Shown: positions 51,369 through 55,608 of the stretch, piece by piece
Layout: each line of letters begins with the position of its first letter
How positions within the stretch are numbered: position 1 is the stretch's first letter
NCBI RefSeq assembly: GCF_014395785.1
Contig: NZ_CP060713.1
Coordinates: forward strand, 2,942,501 to 3,006,500
Length of the DNA: 64,000 nucleotides
Source of the DNA: Nocardioides mesophilus
GTDB taxonomy: Bacteria > Actinomycetota > Actinomycetes > Propionibacteriales > Nocardioidaceae
Reading direction: 5' to 3'
Position numbers and translations under genes: made by a program
Notes under the pieces: generated by a model
Seen by the model: the letters and a program-made list of their open reading frames with translations, nothing else
What the model was told of the DNA's origin: nothing
Database searches by the model: none

Positions 51369-52004
51369 TCAGTGCTCTGTCGGTTCGTCGGTGCGAGGGA
51401 ACCCACGGATCCCTCGCCAGGCCAAGCCTGCCACCAGGGTGGCTGCCTGCTCGCGGTCGGTGGTCCCTGAGGCGTCGAGCCAGAACCGGGCAGAGACCTG
51501 TGCCATGCCCACCAGCGAGACCGACAGCAGCCGTGCCTGGTCGGGAGGCAGACCGGTGTCGGTGTGGATCACCTCGGTGATCGCCTCCGCGCACTCCCGG
51601 GTGACCCGGTCGACGCGCTCGCGCACCGACGGCTCGTTGGTGAGGTCGGACTCGAACACCAGCCGGAAGGCGCCGTGCGCGTTGGCGACGTAGTCGTAGA
51701 AGACGTGCATCGTGGCGGTGACCCGCTGCTTGTTGTCGTCGGTCGAGGCCAGGGCCTCGCGGCAGGCGTCGATGATCGTGTCGCACGACTGGTCGAGCAG
51801 CGCGAGGTAGAGGTCGAGCTTGCCGGGGAAGTGCTGGTAGAGCACCGGTTTGGAGACGCCCGCCTTGTCGGCGATGTCGTCCATGGCGGCGGCGTGGTAG
51901 CCCTGGGCCACGAACACCTCGAGCGCCGACTCCAGGAGCTGGACGCGGCGGGCGTTGCGGGGCATCCGGCCCCCGCGGGGCTTCTGCTCGTGCGTCGTGG
52001 TCAC
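51369..52004 (-). CDS. TetR/AcrR family transcriptional regulator
   Basis: 211 aa. N-terminal HTH (LLESALEVFVAQGYHAAAMD, then DIADKAGVSKPVLYQHFPGK; residues about 24-65) and an all-helical C-domain of the type with DQSCDTIIDACREALAS. It binds an unknown small ligand. GTG 52004 has AGGAGG nine bases upstream. In frame but without support, the reading could start further upstream. Conserved next to DUF3107 in actinobacteria. Confidence 0.88.
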   Translation of the reverse strand: MTTTHEQKPRGGRMPRNARRVQLLESALEVFVAQGYHAAAMDDIADKAGVSKPVLYQHFPGKLDLYLALLDQSCDTIIDACREALASTDDNKQRVTATMHVFYDYVANAHGAFRLVFESDLTNEPSVRERVDRVTRECAEAITEVIHTDTGLPPDQARLLSVSLVGMAQVSARFWLDASGTTDREQAATLVAGLAWRGIRGFPRTDEPTEH

Positions 52005-52064
52005 GTTGGCCGCTCCTCCTGGGTCGCTGGCCCGCAGCCTACTCCGGGGTAATCCACCCGCCGA

Positions 52065-52165
52065 GCGACACCCGGAGCGCGGGACGACCGCGTCGGGCGG
52101 TCCGGGTGGCGCGGGCGGCGCGGGAATCGCGGGCAGTCGCGGGCAGTCGCGGAGGGAGTCACGGG
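52065..52165. repeat. short G/C-rich direct repeats upstream of the TetR gene
   Basis: GCGGGCAGTC occurs twice in tandem (near 52132-52153) amid GGCGCGGGCGGCGCGGG-type repeats. It is probably slippage-derived filler; no regulator is known for it. Confidence 0.35.
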
Positions 52166-52224
52166 GCACCTGGGGCGGAAAGCGAAAGTAAAGCGCGGGT
52201 AAAAAGATGAAAACGAGGCTGGTT

Positions 52225-52403
52225 GTCCCGTTTTGCACCGTTGATCCCGGGGAATGGTGTTGCATGTGGCTCCCCCGAGCGGGAGGATGCCACATGAGGG
52301 GACGGGTTCGCCGTCTTCGATGTGGGGTTTCTTCGCTGGGGGGCCAGCAGACAGACCCGGGACCGCGCTTCGGTGCGACCCACACCTTCGGGGATCCCAC
52401 ATC
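52225..52403 (+). ncRNA. candidate structured leader RNA upstream of the Ser-Glu repeat surface protein
   Basis: The 428-bp gap from the TetR gene contains several nested inverted repeats on the + strand. ATGTGGC (52264-52270) pairs with GCCACAT (52289-52295), enclosing TCCC/GGGA. CCCGT (52228-52232) can pair with ACGGG (52302-52306). GATGTGGG (52319-52326) pairs with CCCACATC (52396-52403), and inside it are GCTGG-GGGG-CCAGC (52335-52348) and CGCGC-TTCG-GTGCG (52364-52377), the last a classic cUUCGg tetraloop. It does not match a riboswitch class known to me. It ends 30 nt before the GTG of the next gene. Confidence 0.4.
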
Positions 52404-52432
52404 GCTACGTGGGGGCACGTGGCTCGTTACAC

Positions 52433-53539
52433 GTGAAGAACGAACAAGGGGTGGGTCCTTTGGGCACGACGTCCAGTCCGTCACGTCAGCTGACGTGGCA
52501 GCAACGAGGCGCCGCCGTCATGGCAGCGCTCGGCACTCTCATCATGGCTTCCGGCCTCGTCATCCTCAGCGCCCCCAGCGCGACGGCGACGGGCAACGGC
52601 GGCCCTCCCGGCAACAACGGCACCGTCAAGATCGACGGGGTCGACTTCGACACCCACCCGGACAACGAGCCGCACCCCGGCTGCACGTTCCAGGTGGACT
52701 TCTACGGCTTCGACCAGGGCGACTACTACGCCACCGTCGTCTTCGAGGACCAGGCGCCGACGGCCGATGCCGGCCTCAGCGTGACCAGCGGCAACACGCA
52801 TCCCTTCATCGGTGGCGACGACAACTCCGGTGGCGGCAGCGAGGCCGGCCTCGACGCGCAGGAGACCTACACGCTCTCCTTCACCGGGGCCCCGCAGCAG
52901 AACCAGGGCTACCACGTCAAGCTGACCATCAACGCCCCGTTCTCCCAGGGCAACGACAGCAAGTCCAAGGTCTTCTGGGTCGGTCCGTGCGAGCAGCCGA
53001 GCGAGTCCCCGTCGGAGTCGGTGTCGCCGAGCGAGTCGGTCTCCCCGTCGGAGTCGGTGTCGCCGAGCGAGTCGGTCTCCCCGTCGGAGTCGGTGTCGCC
53101 GAGCGAGTCGGTCTCCCCGTCGGAGTCGGTCTCGCCCAGCGAGTCGGTCTCCCCGTCGGAGTCGGTCTCGCCGAGTGAGTCGGTCTCCCCGTCGGAGTCG
53201 GTCTCGCCGAGTGAGTCGGCGACCGTGCTGCCGAGCGAGTCGATCTCCCCGTCGGAGTCGGAGTCGCCCAGCGAGTCCGCGACGGTGCTCCCGACCGAGA
53301 CGCTCTCCCCGAGCGAGACGGTCCAGGGCAGTGAGTCGGCCAACGTGGGACCGCCGCCGGCGATCCTCGGCACCCAGGCTGCGGTCCCGACCGCGGTCGA
53401 GGCCGGCCTGGCCGGCAACACCGGTGACAGCTCCTCGCACCAGCTCGCCCAGCTGATGGTGGCTGCGGGCCTGGTCATGCTGCTGGCCGGTGGCTGGCTC
53501 GGACTGGGACGACGCGACCACGGTGCCCACGAGGCCTGA
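52433..53539 (+). CDS. secreted Ser-Glu-Ser repeat surface protein with C-terminal anchor
   Basis: 368 aa. Signal peptide (VMAALGTLIMASGLVILSAPSATA), a compact 130-residue domain with two Cys (HPGCTFQVDFYGF, WVGPCEQPS), then about a dozen SESVSP repeats (18-nt units, 53010-53218) and degenerate SESATVLP copies. The C-terminus has a TM helix (LMVAAGLVMLLAGGWLGL) and a basic tail (GRRDHGAHEA). The motif before it is LAGNTG, close to but one residue longer than the class E LAxTG signal. Probable substrate of the sortase that overlaps its end. GTG 52433 is used; TTG 52460 with AAGGGG upstream is possible. Confidence 0.78.
   Translation: MKNEQGVGPLGTTSSPSRQLTWQQRGAAVMAALGTLIMASGLVILSAPSATATGNGGPPGNNGTVKIDGVDFDTHPDNEPHPGCTFQVDFYGFDQGDYYATVVFEDQAPTADAGLSVTSGNTHPFIGGDDNSGGGSEAGLDAQETYTLSFTGAPQQNQGYHVKLTINAPFSQGNDSKSKVFWVGPCEQPSESPSESVSPSESVSPSESVSPSESVSPSESVSPSESVSPSESVSPSESVSPSESVSPSESVSPSESVSPSESATVLPSESISPSESESPSESATVLPTETLSPSETVQGSESANVGPPPAILGTQAAVPTAVEAGLAGNTGDSSSHQLAQLMVAAGLVMLLAGGWLGLGRRDHGAHEA
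53010..53218 (+). repeat. 18-bp tandem repeats coding for SESVSP
   Basis: About 11-12 units, alternating between two synonymous versions (GAGTCGGTGTCGCCGAGC and GAGTCGGTCTCCCCGTCG), giving an effective 36-bp period. Prone to copy-number change. Confidence 0.9.
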
Positions 53540-54254
53540 GCATCGGACTGAGCACGGCGACCACCGCACCCGGTGGCTCGCCGTGCTCGGCCTGTGCCTG
53601 GCTGCCGTGACGGTCGCCCTTCCCTGGGCGGCCCCCCGGCTTCTCGACGAGGCCGACCGGGCGGTGGCACGTTTCGCCGCCGCCCCGGTCGCGGCCCCGA
53701 CACCTCCGCCGTTCGTCGTGGAACCTTCCGTCCGGATGCGAGCCCGGCCAGCGACCGGCGGGCAGGACGGGCAGGACCCGTCCGCCCCCGCGGTGGCCTC
53801 GCCCCGCAGCGGCGTGCCCTTGCGGCTGCTGGTCCCCGAGCTCAGGGTGGACGCCCCGGTCGTGGAGATCGGCGTGACCGACGGCGTGCTCTTCCCGCCC
53901 GCCGACCCGCAGACGCTCGGCTGGTGGGGCGAGGGAGCAGTCCCGGGCGCGGCCCGGGGCGGCGCCCTGATCACCGGGCACACCGTCCACACCGGCGGCG
54001 GGGCCTTCGACGACCTCGAGACGCTGCACACCGGTGACCGGGTGCAGGTGCGCACCACCCGGGGTCTCATCGACTACGCGGTGACCGGCGTGACCGTCTA
54101 CCGCAAGGCAGGCCTCGCCCGCGACGCGGCCCGGGTGTTCAGCCAGGACGTGCCCGGCCGGCTGGTGCTGATCACCTGCGAGGACTGGAACGGCTCGGGC
54201 TACGACTCCAACGCGATCGTCTTCGCCGAGCGGACCGGCCCGAAGAGCGGCTGA
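53523..54254 (+). CDS. class E/F-type sortase
   Basis: 243 aa. N-terminal TM helix (LAVLGLCLAAVTVALPWAA), Pro/Ala-rich linker, then a sortase barrel: RLLVPELRVDAPVVEIGVTD, GALITGHTVHTGGGAFDDL (catalytic His) and LVLITCEDWNGSGYDSN (catalytic Cys). An Arg directly after the Cys loop, seen in most sortases, is not evident (NAIVFAERTG has one further on). The gene overlaps the end of the repeat-protein gene by 17 bp, so enzyme and probable substrate are co-expressed. It differs from the 39-kb sortase. Confidence 0.83.
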   Translation: MPTRPEHRTEHGDHRTRWLAVLGLCLAAVTVALPWAAPRLLDEADRAVARFAAAPVAAPTPPPFVVEPSVRMRARPATGGQDGQDPSAPAVASPRSGVPLRLLVPELRVDAPVVEIGVTDGVLFPPADPQTLGWWGEGAVPGAARGGALITGHTVHTGGGAFDDLETLHTGDRVQVRTTRGLIDYAVTGVTVYRKAGLARDAARVFSQDVPGRLVLITCEDWNGSGYDSNAIVFAERTGPKSG

Positions 54255-54304
54255 GCGGCACGTTCCAGATGACGGGACGCCGGCAGGCGCGCCGCCGTAC
54301 AGAG

Positions 54305-54330
54305 GGAACATGGCAGGAGGCGTCGGTGTT
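54305..54330 (+). promoter_or_regulatory. SigE-type promoter upstream of moeZ
   Basis: GGAAC (54305-54309), 18 bp and GTT (54328-54330), followed by GAC, as in the sigE promoter at 12261. Both sites begin GGAACAT and end GTTGAC. Start of transcription would lie about 30 bp before moeZ. Confidence 0.45.
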
Positions 54331-54339
54331 GACACCGAC
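54322..54339. promoter_or_regulatory. 18-bp palindrome over the moeZ -10 region
   Basis: GTCGGTGTTGACACCGAC: 8-bp arms with a 2-bp centre, covering the GTT -10 element. An operator or 5' hairpin. Confidence 0.45.
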
Positions 54340-54369
54340 GGAACCTGACCCACACGCTGAGGAGCACCT

Positions 54370-55608
54370 GTGTCCCTGCCACCCCTGGTCGCACCTGCCG
54401 ACACGCTGACCAACGACGAGGTCCGTCGCTACAGCCGGCACCTGATCATCCCCGACGTCGGGATGGACGGGCAGAAGCGGCTCAAGAACGCCAAGGTCCT
54501 GGTGATCGGGGCCGGTGGCCTGGGCAGCCCGGCGCTGCTCTACCTGGCCGCCGCCGGCGTGGGCACGCTCGGGATCGCCGAGTTCGACGAGGTCGACGAG
54601 TCGAACCTGCAGCGCCAGATCATCCACGGCCAGTCCGACATCGGGAAGTCCAAGGCGCTCTCGGCCAAGGAGTCGATCGCCGAGGCGAACCCGCTGGTCA
54701 ACGTCGTGCTCCACGACGAGCGGCTGGACAACGACAACGTGCTCGGCATCTTCGAGCAGTACGACCTGATCGTCGACGGCACCGACAACTTCGCGACGCG
54801 CTACATGGTCAACGACGCGGCGTACTTCTTGAAGAAGCCCTACGTCTGGGGCTCGATCTACCGCTTCGACGGGCAGGCCTCGGTGTTCTGGCCGACGGTC
54901 GACGAGTTCGCAGCCGACCTCGAGGGCGCGACGTCCACGGTCTCCGAGGCGCCCTGCTACCGCTGCCTCTACCCCGAGCCGCCGCCGCCGGGCATGGTCC
55001 CCTCGTGCGCCGAGGGTGGCGTCCTGGGGGTGCTCTGCGCGAGCATCGGCTCGATCCAGGTCAACGAGGCGATCAAGCTGCTGACCGGCATCGGAGACCC
55101 GCTGGTCGGCAAGCTGATGATCTACGACGCCCTCGAGATGGAGTACCGCAAGCTCAAGGTGCGCAAGGACCCGAACTGCGCGCTCTGCGGTGAGAACCCC
55201 ACCGTCACCGGGCTGATCGACTACGACGCCTTCTGCGGCGCCATCTCCGAGGAGGCCGCCGACGCAGCGGCCGGCTCGACCATCTCGGTCGGCCAGCTCG
55301 AGCAGTGGCTGAAGGAGCGCGACACCGGCGAGCGAGACTTCGTGCTCGTCGACGTCCGGGAGCCGAACGAGTTCGACATCAACCGGATCCCTGGCTCGGT
55401 GCTGATCCCCAAGGGCGAGTTCCTCAACGGCAACGCGCTCTCCCAGCTTCCGGCCGACAAGCCGGTGGTGCTGCACTGCAAGTCGGGCGTCCGGTCCGCG
55501 GAGGCGCTCGCGGTGCTCAAGGGCGCCGGCTTCTCCGACGCCGTGCACGTCGGCGGCGGCGTGGTCGCCTGGGTCAACCAGATCGACCCCTCCCAGCCGT
55601 CGTACTGA
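54370..55608 (+). CDS. moeZ: adenylyltransferase/sulfurtransferase MoeZ
   Basis: 412 aa, full length. ThiF/MoeB-type E1 domain (about 15-260): VLVIGAGGLGSPALLYLAAA, GIAEFDEVDESNLQRQ, and zinc Cys pairs in CYRC and CALCGE. The C-terminal rhodanese domain (about 285-405) has DFVLVDVREPNEFDINRIPG and the active Cys370 in VVLHCKSGVRSAE. MoeZ adenylates and thiolates small sulfur carriers (MoaD, ThiS, CysO types). GAGGAG precedes GTG 54370. A terminator hairpin follows. Confidence 0.93.
   Translation: MSLPPLVAPADTLTNDEVRRYSRHLIIPDVGMDGQKRLKNAKVLVIGAGGLGSPALLYLAAAGVGTLGIAEFDEVDESNLQRQIIHGQSDIGKSKALSAKESIAEANPLVNVVLHDERLDNDNVLGIFEQYDLIVDGTDNFATRYMVNDAAYFLKKPYVWGSIYRFDGQASVFWPTVDEFAADLEGATSTVSEAPCYRCLYPEPPPPGMVPSCAEGGVLGVLCASIGSIQVNEAIKLLTGIGDPLVGKLMIYDALEMEYRKLKVRKDPNCALCGENPTVTGLIDYDAFCGAISEEAADAAAGSTISVGQLEQWLKERDTGERDFVLVDVREPNEFDINRIPGSVLIPKGEFLNGNALSQLPADKPVVLHCKSGVRSAEALAVLKGAGFSDAVHVGGGVVAWVNQIDPSQPSY

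Follow-up and report, generated by a model that had tools for sequence, protein, structure and literature searches.

A probable structured RNA element in the 5' leader of a putative sortase substrate gene of Nocardioides mesophilus

The FasR-sortase locus

The window, the whole 64,000-nucleotide stretch analysed here, comes from the 4.49-Mb, single-contig genome of Nocardioides mesophilus (G000). Within it, the intergenic region 52005-52459 parts the minus-strand gene of a FasR-like TetR regulator from the gene of a secreted, repeat-rich protein, the start codon of which was taken as TTG 52460 behind AAGGGGTGG (Table 1). The same AAGGGGTGG precedes a GTG codon in a relative of the same genus (G001), and GGGGTGGGTCCG precedes TTG in a genome of another genus (G098). 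The secreted protein has no Pfam match at E 0.01. The class F-like sortase encoded behind it scored 78.7 bits against the NCBIfam class F model, under the cut-off of 166, and its frame, given a start at 53490, overlaps the substrate gene. The C-termini of the secreted proteins of G000, G001 and G098 have in common the sequence VPTAV(D/E)AGL followed by a hydrophobic stretch and a basic tail, and no canonical LPXTG was seen in them by reading; from these shared features and the neighbouring sortase gene we infer the label of sortase substrate. VPTAV(D/E)AGL stands where the canonical LPXTG is expected (window 53380-53539; loci L132 and L138) and, going by its sequence, is perhaps the sorting motif of the class F-like sortase.

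A FasR orthologue occurs in six of the seven genomes of the genus, and the proteins of G000 and G001 are 87% identical. By reading, moeZ directly follows FasR in G002, G003 and G005, from which the substrate gene is absent, and a leader with a signal-peptide protein follows FasR in G001 and G004, like in the window. The sortase comes next after the substrate in G001, the closest sortase of G004 is found at the start of another contig, and FasR, leader, substrate and sortase are all present in G098. The middle domains of the substrates differ among G000, G001, G004 and G098; the signal peptides are alike in appearance. The interval between FasR and moeZ is thus a variable site (window 51369-55608; L127-L131, L138, L139), which is empty in G002, G003 and G005 and holds substrate and sortase in G000, G001 and G098; in G044, a sortase lies immediately after FasR. 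Protein homologues were detected in 47 of 245 genomes of the family, self included. Neither a sigma-70-type promoter nor an intrinsic terminator or attenuator (hairpin plus T run) was found in 51900-52600.

Table 1. Genes and predicted RNA features at the locus (positions in the window)
Feature	Position	Strand	Remarks
FasR-like TetR-type regulator, divergent	51369..52004	-	FasR model 251.8 bits, cut-off 330
Hairpin H1, ATGTGG/CCACAT arms	52263..52296	+	-23.6 kcal/mol, z -5.0; not recovered in relatives
Hairpin H2, GUUCG loop	52298..52318	+	not recovered in relatives
P1 5' strand, closing helix	52319..52332	+	14 pairs with 52390-52403
P2 hairpin, GGGG loop (GCUGG-GGGG-CCAGC)	52335..52348	+	in G001, a hairpin with another loop
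P3 hairpin, UUCG loop (CGCGC-UUCG-GUGCG inside)	52359..52381	+	in G001, a different hairpin at the same place
Possible anti-Shine-Dalgarno strand GACCCACACCTT	52377..52388	+	11 of 12 pairs with 52446-52457
P1 3' strand	52390..52403	+	directly abuts H4
H4, 8-bp hairpin, GGGG loop, GCUACGUG-GGGG-CACGUGGC	52404..52423	+	-12 kcal/mol, z -4.56
Shine-Dalgarno block AAGGGGTGGG	52446..52455	+	AAGGGGTGG also in G001, GGGGTGGGTCC in G098
Putative sortase substrate	52460..53539	+	signal peptide, GNNGTVKI domain, Ser/Pro-rich repeats, C-terminal hydrophobic segment and basic tail (by reading)
Class F-like sortase	53490..54254	+	Pfam Sortase 9.3e-19

Predicted folding of the leader

A sequence-only reading had described two hairpin domains with an ATGTGG/CCACAT core upstream of the gene, the second enclosing a GGGG-loop hairpin and a UUCG tetraloop. 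Both domains are present, as H1 and P1, with ATGTGG at 52264-52269 and 52320-52325 and CCACAT at 52290-52295 and 52397-52402, and both inner hairpins lie within P1. The 144-nt stretch 52262-52405 folds at -76.5 kcal/mol (z -4.07), a value that none of 200 shuffles equalled. The reading made no mention of H4, nor of the fact that H1 and P1 lose to other pairing when the whole leader is folded (-130.3 vs -123.8 kcal/mol). It had found the right place and observed it correctly, but its structure held only in part.

Among 150-nt segments of the leader, the best reaches a z of -5.3 (40 shuffles) and its reverse complement -5.8, so that folding energy does not tell the strand. Across 158 plus-strand segments drawn at random from the window, the mean z is -0.32 (sd 1.19) and the minimum -4.7; the leader region is therefore unusual, but barely beyond the local range. 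Measured over the 200 nt that end 10 nt upstream of the start codon, the window reaches -2.23 and is not the lowest among the homologue leaders (L053 -2.80, L023 -2.52, L037 -2.37), which have a mean of -0.72 and an sd of 1.05 over 36 rows that include the window and hold one sequence twice (L025 = L042).

The P1/H4 core and its range

The conserved core consists of P1, which closes around two hairpins and abuts H4, followed by the Shine-Dalgarno sequence (SD) and the start codon. A covariance model built from the single sequence of window 52318-52460 (R2) matched the orthologous G001 leader over its full length (L127:1303-1168, minus strand) with 29.7 bits and an E value of 6.2e-7 in 71 kb, the next-best match having 8.7 bits. 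In the resulting alignment of G000 and G001, 98.4% of the pair cells are standard, compared to 80.8% after shuffling, and sliding the partners by 1-3 columns lowers standard pairing to 38-50%. Thirteen pairs are changed on both sides, comprising nine of 14 in P1, three of five in P2 and one of eight in H4; in P3, G001 has no letters aligned to the eight pairs. As P1 is present in two sequences, this covariation amounts to one comparison, made on a structure-fitted alignment.

Because the R2 alignment is fitted to the structure, the best uninterrupted helix ending at H4 was sought separately. In the window it starts 85 nt upstream and has 14 pairs; in G001 it starts 81 nt upstream and has 13. 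In each case, one of 400 dinucleotide shuffles does as well; the best such helix of G004 has eight pairs and is reached by 98 of 400. Folded separately, the stretches of the window and G001 both give P1, two hairpins and H4, with z of -3.3 and -3.9, respectively. P1 has 10 pairs in the G001 optimum, where three of its bases are taken by P2, and it is also present in the fold of the longer G001 leader. The interior of the longest P1 spans 57 nt in the window and 55 nt in G001, and the distance from H4 to the start codon is 36 and 34 nt, respectively; neither difference is a multiple of three, so the similarity is not accounted for by shared coding. Recurrence in the orthologous leader together with compensatory changes, found in one species pair, supports a conserved RNA structure upstream of the gene, and we regard a real, conserved RNA structure in the leader of the putative sortase substrate as highly probable. 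The plain DNA search left the G001 leader unmatched, and the conserved RNA fold is thus detectable where such a search fails.

What recurs differs from the arrangement first proposed. A model of the two domains of the sequence-only reading (R1; H1, H2 and P1) gave 34 matches up to E 10 in 47 loci, the best at E 0.12, and none at the leaders of L127, L128 and L138. Across 241 genomes it recovered self and two matches, in G184 (E 0.005) and G004 (E 0.09), both of which lie inside long open frames and were rejected as chance-level, so H1 and the second domain do not behave as one conserved unit. The models recovered neither H1 nor H2 in relatives, and conservation of P3 is likewise unsupported. 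The pattern ATGTGG..CCACAT..ATGTGG had 10 matches including self, in nine of 241 genomes, compared to 11 for the reversed control; the ATGTGG/CCACAT core, rather than being a shared feature, thus seems private to the window genome. In a plain DNA search of 98 genomes, self alone matched at full length. Three short matches (27-34 bases; G005, G018, G007) were set aside as they lie, by reading, in coding sequence.

The reading had also suggested a covariance search in actinobacterial genomes and had made its claim depend on conservation upstream of homologues. Such searches recovered the P1/H4 core in G001 and no third member. A model built from G000 and G001 (R3) found none in 83 loci (best 14 bits, E 0.18), scoring 7 bits (E 9.7) at the corresponding position in G004, and none in 284 family and 279 order genomes, where filters that lose weak matches were used and other matches had E 0.03-0.07. 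Since G000 and G001 are the only low-E matches of R3, the element is either young or fast-diverging. R1 and R3 found nothing in the fetched homologue leaders; conservation extends to the orthologous G001 leader, and nothing similar was seen upstream of most homologues. R2 used unfiltered on the leaders of G004 and G098 gave 5.4-5.8 bits on both strands and hence no support. G004, which has the locus, possesses no comparable P1 and merely an H4-like hairpin; G098 has neither P1 at the leader nor an 8-bp H4; and G002, G003 and G005, which lack the substrate gene, have no H4-like hairpin and no model match. G004 may represent a step in divergence in which H4 was kept and P1 lost or replaced. A look-alike leader at L023, the last 125 nt of which before the start hold an 11-bp helix around GGGG-loop and GCGTC/GACGC hairpins and then a G-loop hairpin at the SD, is unmatched by R3 and was not counted as a member. 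Two homologues, at L058 and L063, resemble each other in a structured leader of a different type, which is located about 120 nt ahead of the start codon and ends in GAAAGGTTTTCGA before GTG; these loci have no Rfam match.

H4 is the best conserved part of the leader. In G000, G001 and G004, 8-bp hairpins with a G loop begin 56, 54 and 43 nt upstream of the start codon, respectively, with the arms GCUACGUG/CACGUGGC, GCCGCGUG/CACGCGGU and CCGCUGCG/CGCAGCGG; the loop is GGGG in G000 and G001 and GGGGG in G004. The part CGTGGGGGCACG is identical in G000 and G001 and differs in G004. A scan of both strands of 186 loci, which total 711 kb with overlaps, for 8-bp hairpins with at most two G-U pairs found such GGGG(G)-loop hairpins in five other sequences (L037, L058, L064, L155, L158). 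The one at L064 (999-1018, minus strand), CCGTCACG-GGGG-TGTGACGG, is located 108 nt before the start of another homologue.

In 49 leaders, hairpins of at least 5 bp comprised 14 with a G loop (2.9 expected), six of them from the three genus leaders, and none with a C loop (2.0 expected); this excess on the sense strand, 14 to 0, favours an RNA over a DNA site. The set combines 46 homologue leaders, with starts picked by eye, and those of G000, G001 and G004. Absent from it are L030, where no start codon was found, the unfetched ones of 54 homologue places, and L035, L042, L045, L054, L055, L059 and L060 (duplicate, incomplete, second G001 substrate or unsettled start), of which L060 could have joined. 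Near other sortases (40 loci, including L172 with just 817 bases), three G-loop hairpins and one C-loop hairpin of at least 6 bp were present, counted irrespective of gene starts. Runs of G in 50 leaders numbered 90 compared to 82 expected from mononucleotide shuffles, and their enrichment is therefore no general leader feature.

The sequence-only reading had assigned the leader to no known class, and the Rfam searches agree. None of 4227 families matched in the 64-kb window at gathering score, and five sub-threshold matches appeared in 52100-52600 at E up to 10. Of these, the Streptomyces RNA Scr6925 (RF02826) is the sole plus-strand overlap (52254-52361); at 13.6 bits against a cut-off of 50 and E 9, it was rejected as chance. 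The G001 leader had no family match either, giving one sub-threshold hit at E up to 5 (PhotoRC-I, 14.8 bits). No description of the leader turned up in those parts of the literature and of Rfam that the search reached. The leader is new to Rfam and was found in a narrow lineage.

Shine-Dalgarno pairing and possible function

Folding of 52216-52484 gives two contrasting pictures. In the unconstrained fold (-130.3 kcal/mol), neither H1 nor P1 is formed; the H1 copy of CCACAT is paired to the P1 copy of ATGTGG, 52377-52383 pairs with 52451-52457 (probability 0.95-0.99) and 52385-52387 with 52447-52449 (0.54-0.58). Enforcing the SD pairing in register again yields -130.3, the same as without constraint. 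With P1 enforced (-123.8 kcal/mol), H1, H2 and H4 are kept, and CCUUUG at the start codon forms a short hairpin with the SD (about 0.93). Since neither fold predicted for the window leaves the SD unpaired, the energies show no open state; in the whole-leader fold of G001, P1 is kept and the SD is partly paired. Complementarity to the SD within the 18-25 nt next to P1 is reached by 53-86 of 1000 shuffles (5-9%) in both species, that of GACCCACACCTT by 53-58 of 1000, and that over the whole P1 interior by 448 and 346 of 1000. By itself, SD complementarity is not significant. Masking of the SD is a guess; in the modelled folds, the ATGTGG/CCACAT core could serve as an exchange arm that switches between gripping the SD tightly and more loosely.

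On the sequence-only reading's suggestion of a cis-regulatory structured RNA, the structure stands, conserved upstream of the gene with compensatory changes, but the regulation in cis is a proposal. We tentatively prefer, at slightly short of an even chance, a lineage-restricted structured RNA element in the 5' leader that acts in cis on translation initiation of the putative sortase substrate. Its core would be P1 closing a two-hairpin junction, with the GGGG-loop H4 adjoining, about 20 nt before the ribosome-binding site, and it would govern how accessible the SD is. The P1/H4 fold would leave the SD in a short hairpin formed locally with the start codon, easier for the ribosome to open; in the other fold, the junction strand GACCCACACC would hold it in long-range pairing. 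A signal, which might be a ligand, a protein binding at the GGGG loop or co-transcriptional folding, would shift the balance and thereby change the amount of surface protein made, and perhaps of sortase too. The more specific version, a new, narrowly distributed translational riboswitch or protein-binding leader with an SD-masking junction strand, which controls sortase surface display and occupies the position that, in another lineage, a c-di-GMP-II riboswitch has before a homologous gene, we hold to be improbable.

Translational riboswitches and other leaders that mask the SD are a familiar kind of element. The leader resembles them in having a junction domain upstream of the SD with an SD-complementary strand, but differs in its narrow range, and its masking is putative, with no clear counterpart in G001. 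The c-di-GMP-II-GAG class (RF03169) likewise stands before the starts of secreted-protein genes, one of them a homologue, but the leader does not fit it in sequence or secondary structure. On a metagenome-assembled contig labelled Mycobacterium sp. (L047, 909-992), such a riboswitch (50.6 bits) lies 11 nt before the start codon of a homologue (~1004). Across 241 genomes, 38 were matched at E up to 0.1, with one match above the cut-off of 40 bits. Matches at L134 (2035-2121, 43.4 bits), L135 (1218-1301, 38.9) and L136 (1389-1473, 38.2), in G003, G255 and G016, respectively, end 20-26 nt upstream of where secreted-protein genes probably start. By reading, the G003 gene encodes a matrixin-like protease, and those of G255 and G016 encode small exported proteins that carry a WTxTGSGTGSA motif. 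In Clostridioides difficile, sortase substrates are reported to be under c-di-GMP control, partly via riboswitches (PMC4591827, PMC6200980). The targets are alike; the phylum and the RNA class are different.

Several other explanations were weighed. That the leader is itself a diverged c-di-GMP-II riboswitch draws on the L047 riboswitch before a homologue gene and on the one match above and two just below the cut-off before other secreted-protein genes of the family; with no match to the class in the window leader at E up to 10, in the G001 leader at E up to 5 or in the window genome at E up to 0.1, we give this hardly any credence. Palindromes are typical operator shapes, and the inverted repeats, palindromic as they are, lie in a divergent intergenic region adjoining a TetR-type gene, so they might be DNA operators of the FasR-like regulator or of another transcription factor. 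Nine of the 14 P1 pairs, however, are changed on both sides between G000 and G001, the FasR proteins of which are so similar; G002, G003 and G005 keep FasR without the repeats; no palindrome conserved in sequence across orthologues was found for P1 or H1; and the G-loop hairpins keep to the sense strand. Operators are accordingly very unlikely. Chance would mean that G+C-rich intergenic hairpins were taken for an element, the resemblance to G001 coming from the conserved 3' end (CGTGGGGGCACG, AAGGGGTGG) and P1 being fitted by the model. The chance-level matches of R1, the absence of P1 at the third and fourth loci, random segments with z down to -4.7 and an unconstrained window fold without P1 all fit this. 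But P1 of G001 was also found model-free, at a near-equal distance and directly abutting H4, with one of 400 shuffles as good, and it belongs to the free-energy optimum of both the isolated stretch and the longer leader, which makes chance a rather poor explanation.

The strongest competitor accepts a real leader element and dispenses with the switch: P1 and H4 would form a static 5' stabiliser or ribosome standby site, with translation at a constant level. Strong helices recurring near the SD, an SD that is paired in both window folds and partly open in G001, and the lack of significance of its complementarity are all in keeping with this. A two-hairpin junction with a GGGG loop retained across three species, on the other hand, exceeds what a stabiliser needs, and we judge a static element unlikely, if clearly more plausible than chance or operators.

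We thus return to a cis-acting leader as our preferred, tentative reading. If the leader regulates translation, it would add an unlisted cis-acting RNA before an actinobacterial surface-protein gene, and different lineages would be seen to place different RNAs before related surface-protein genes.
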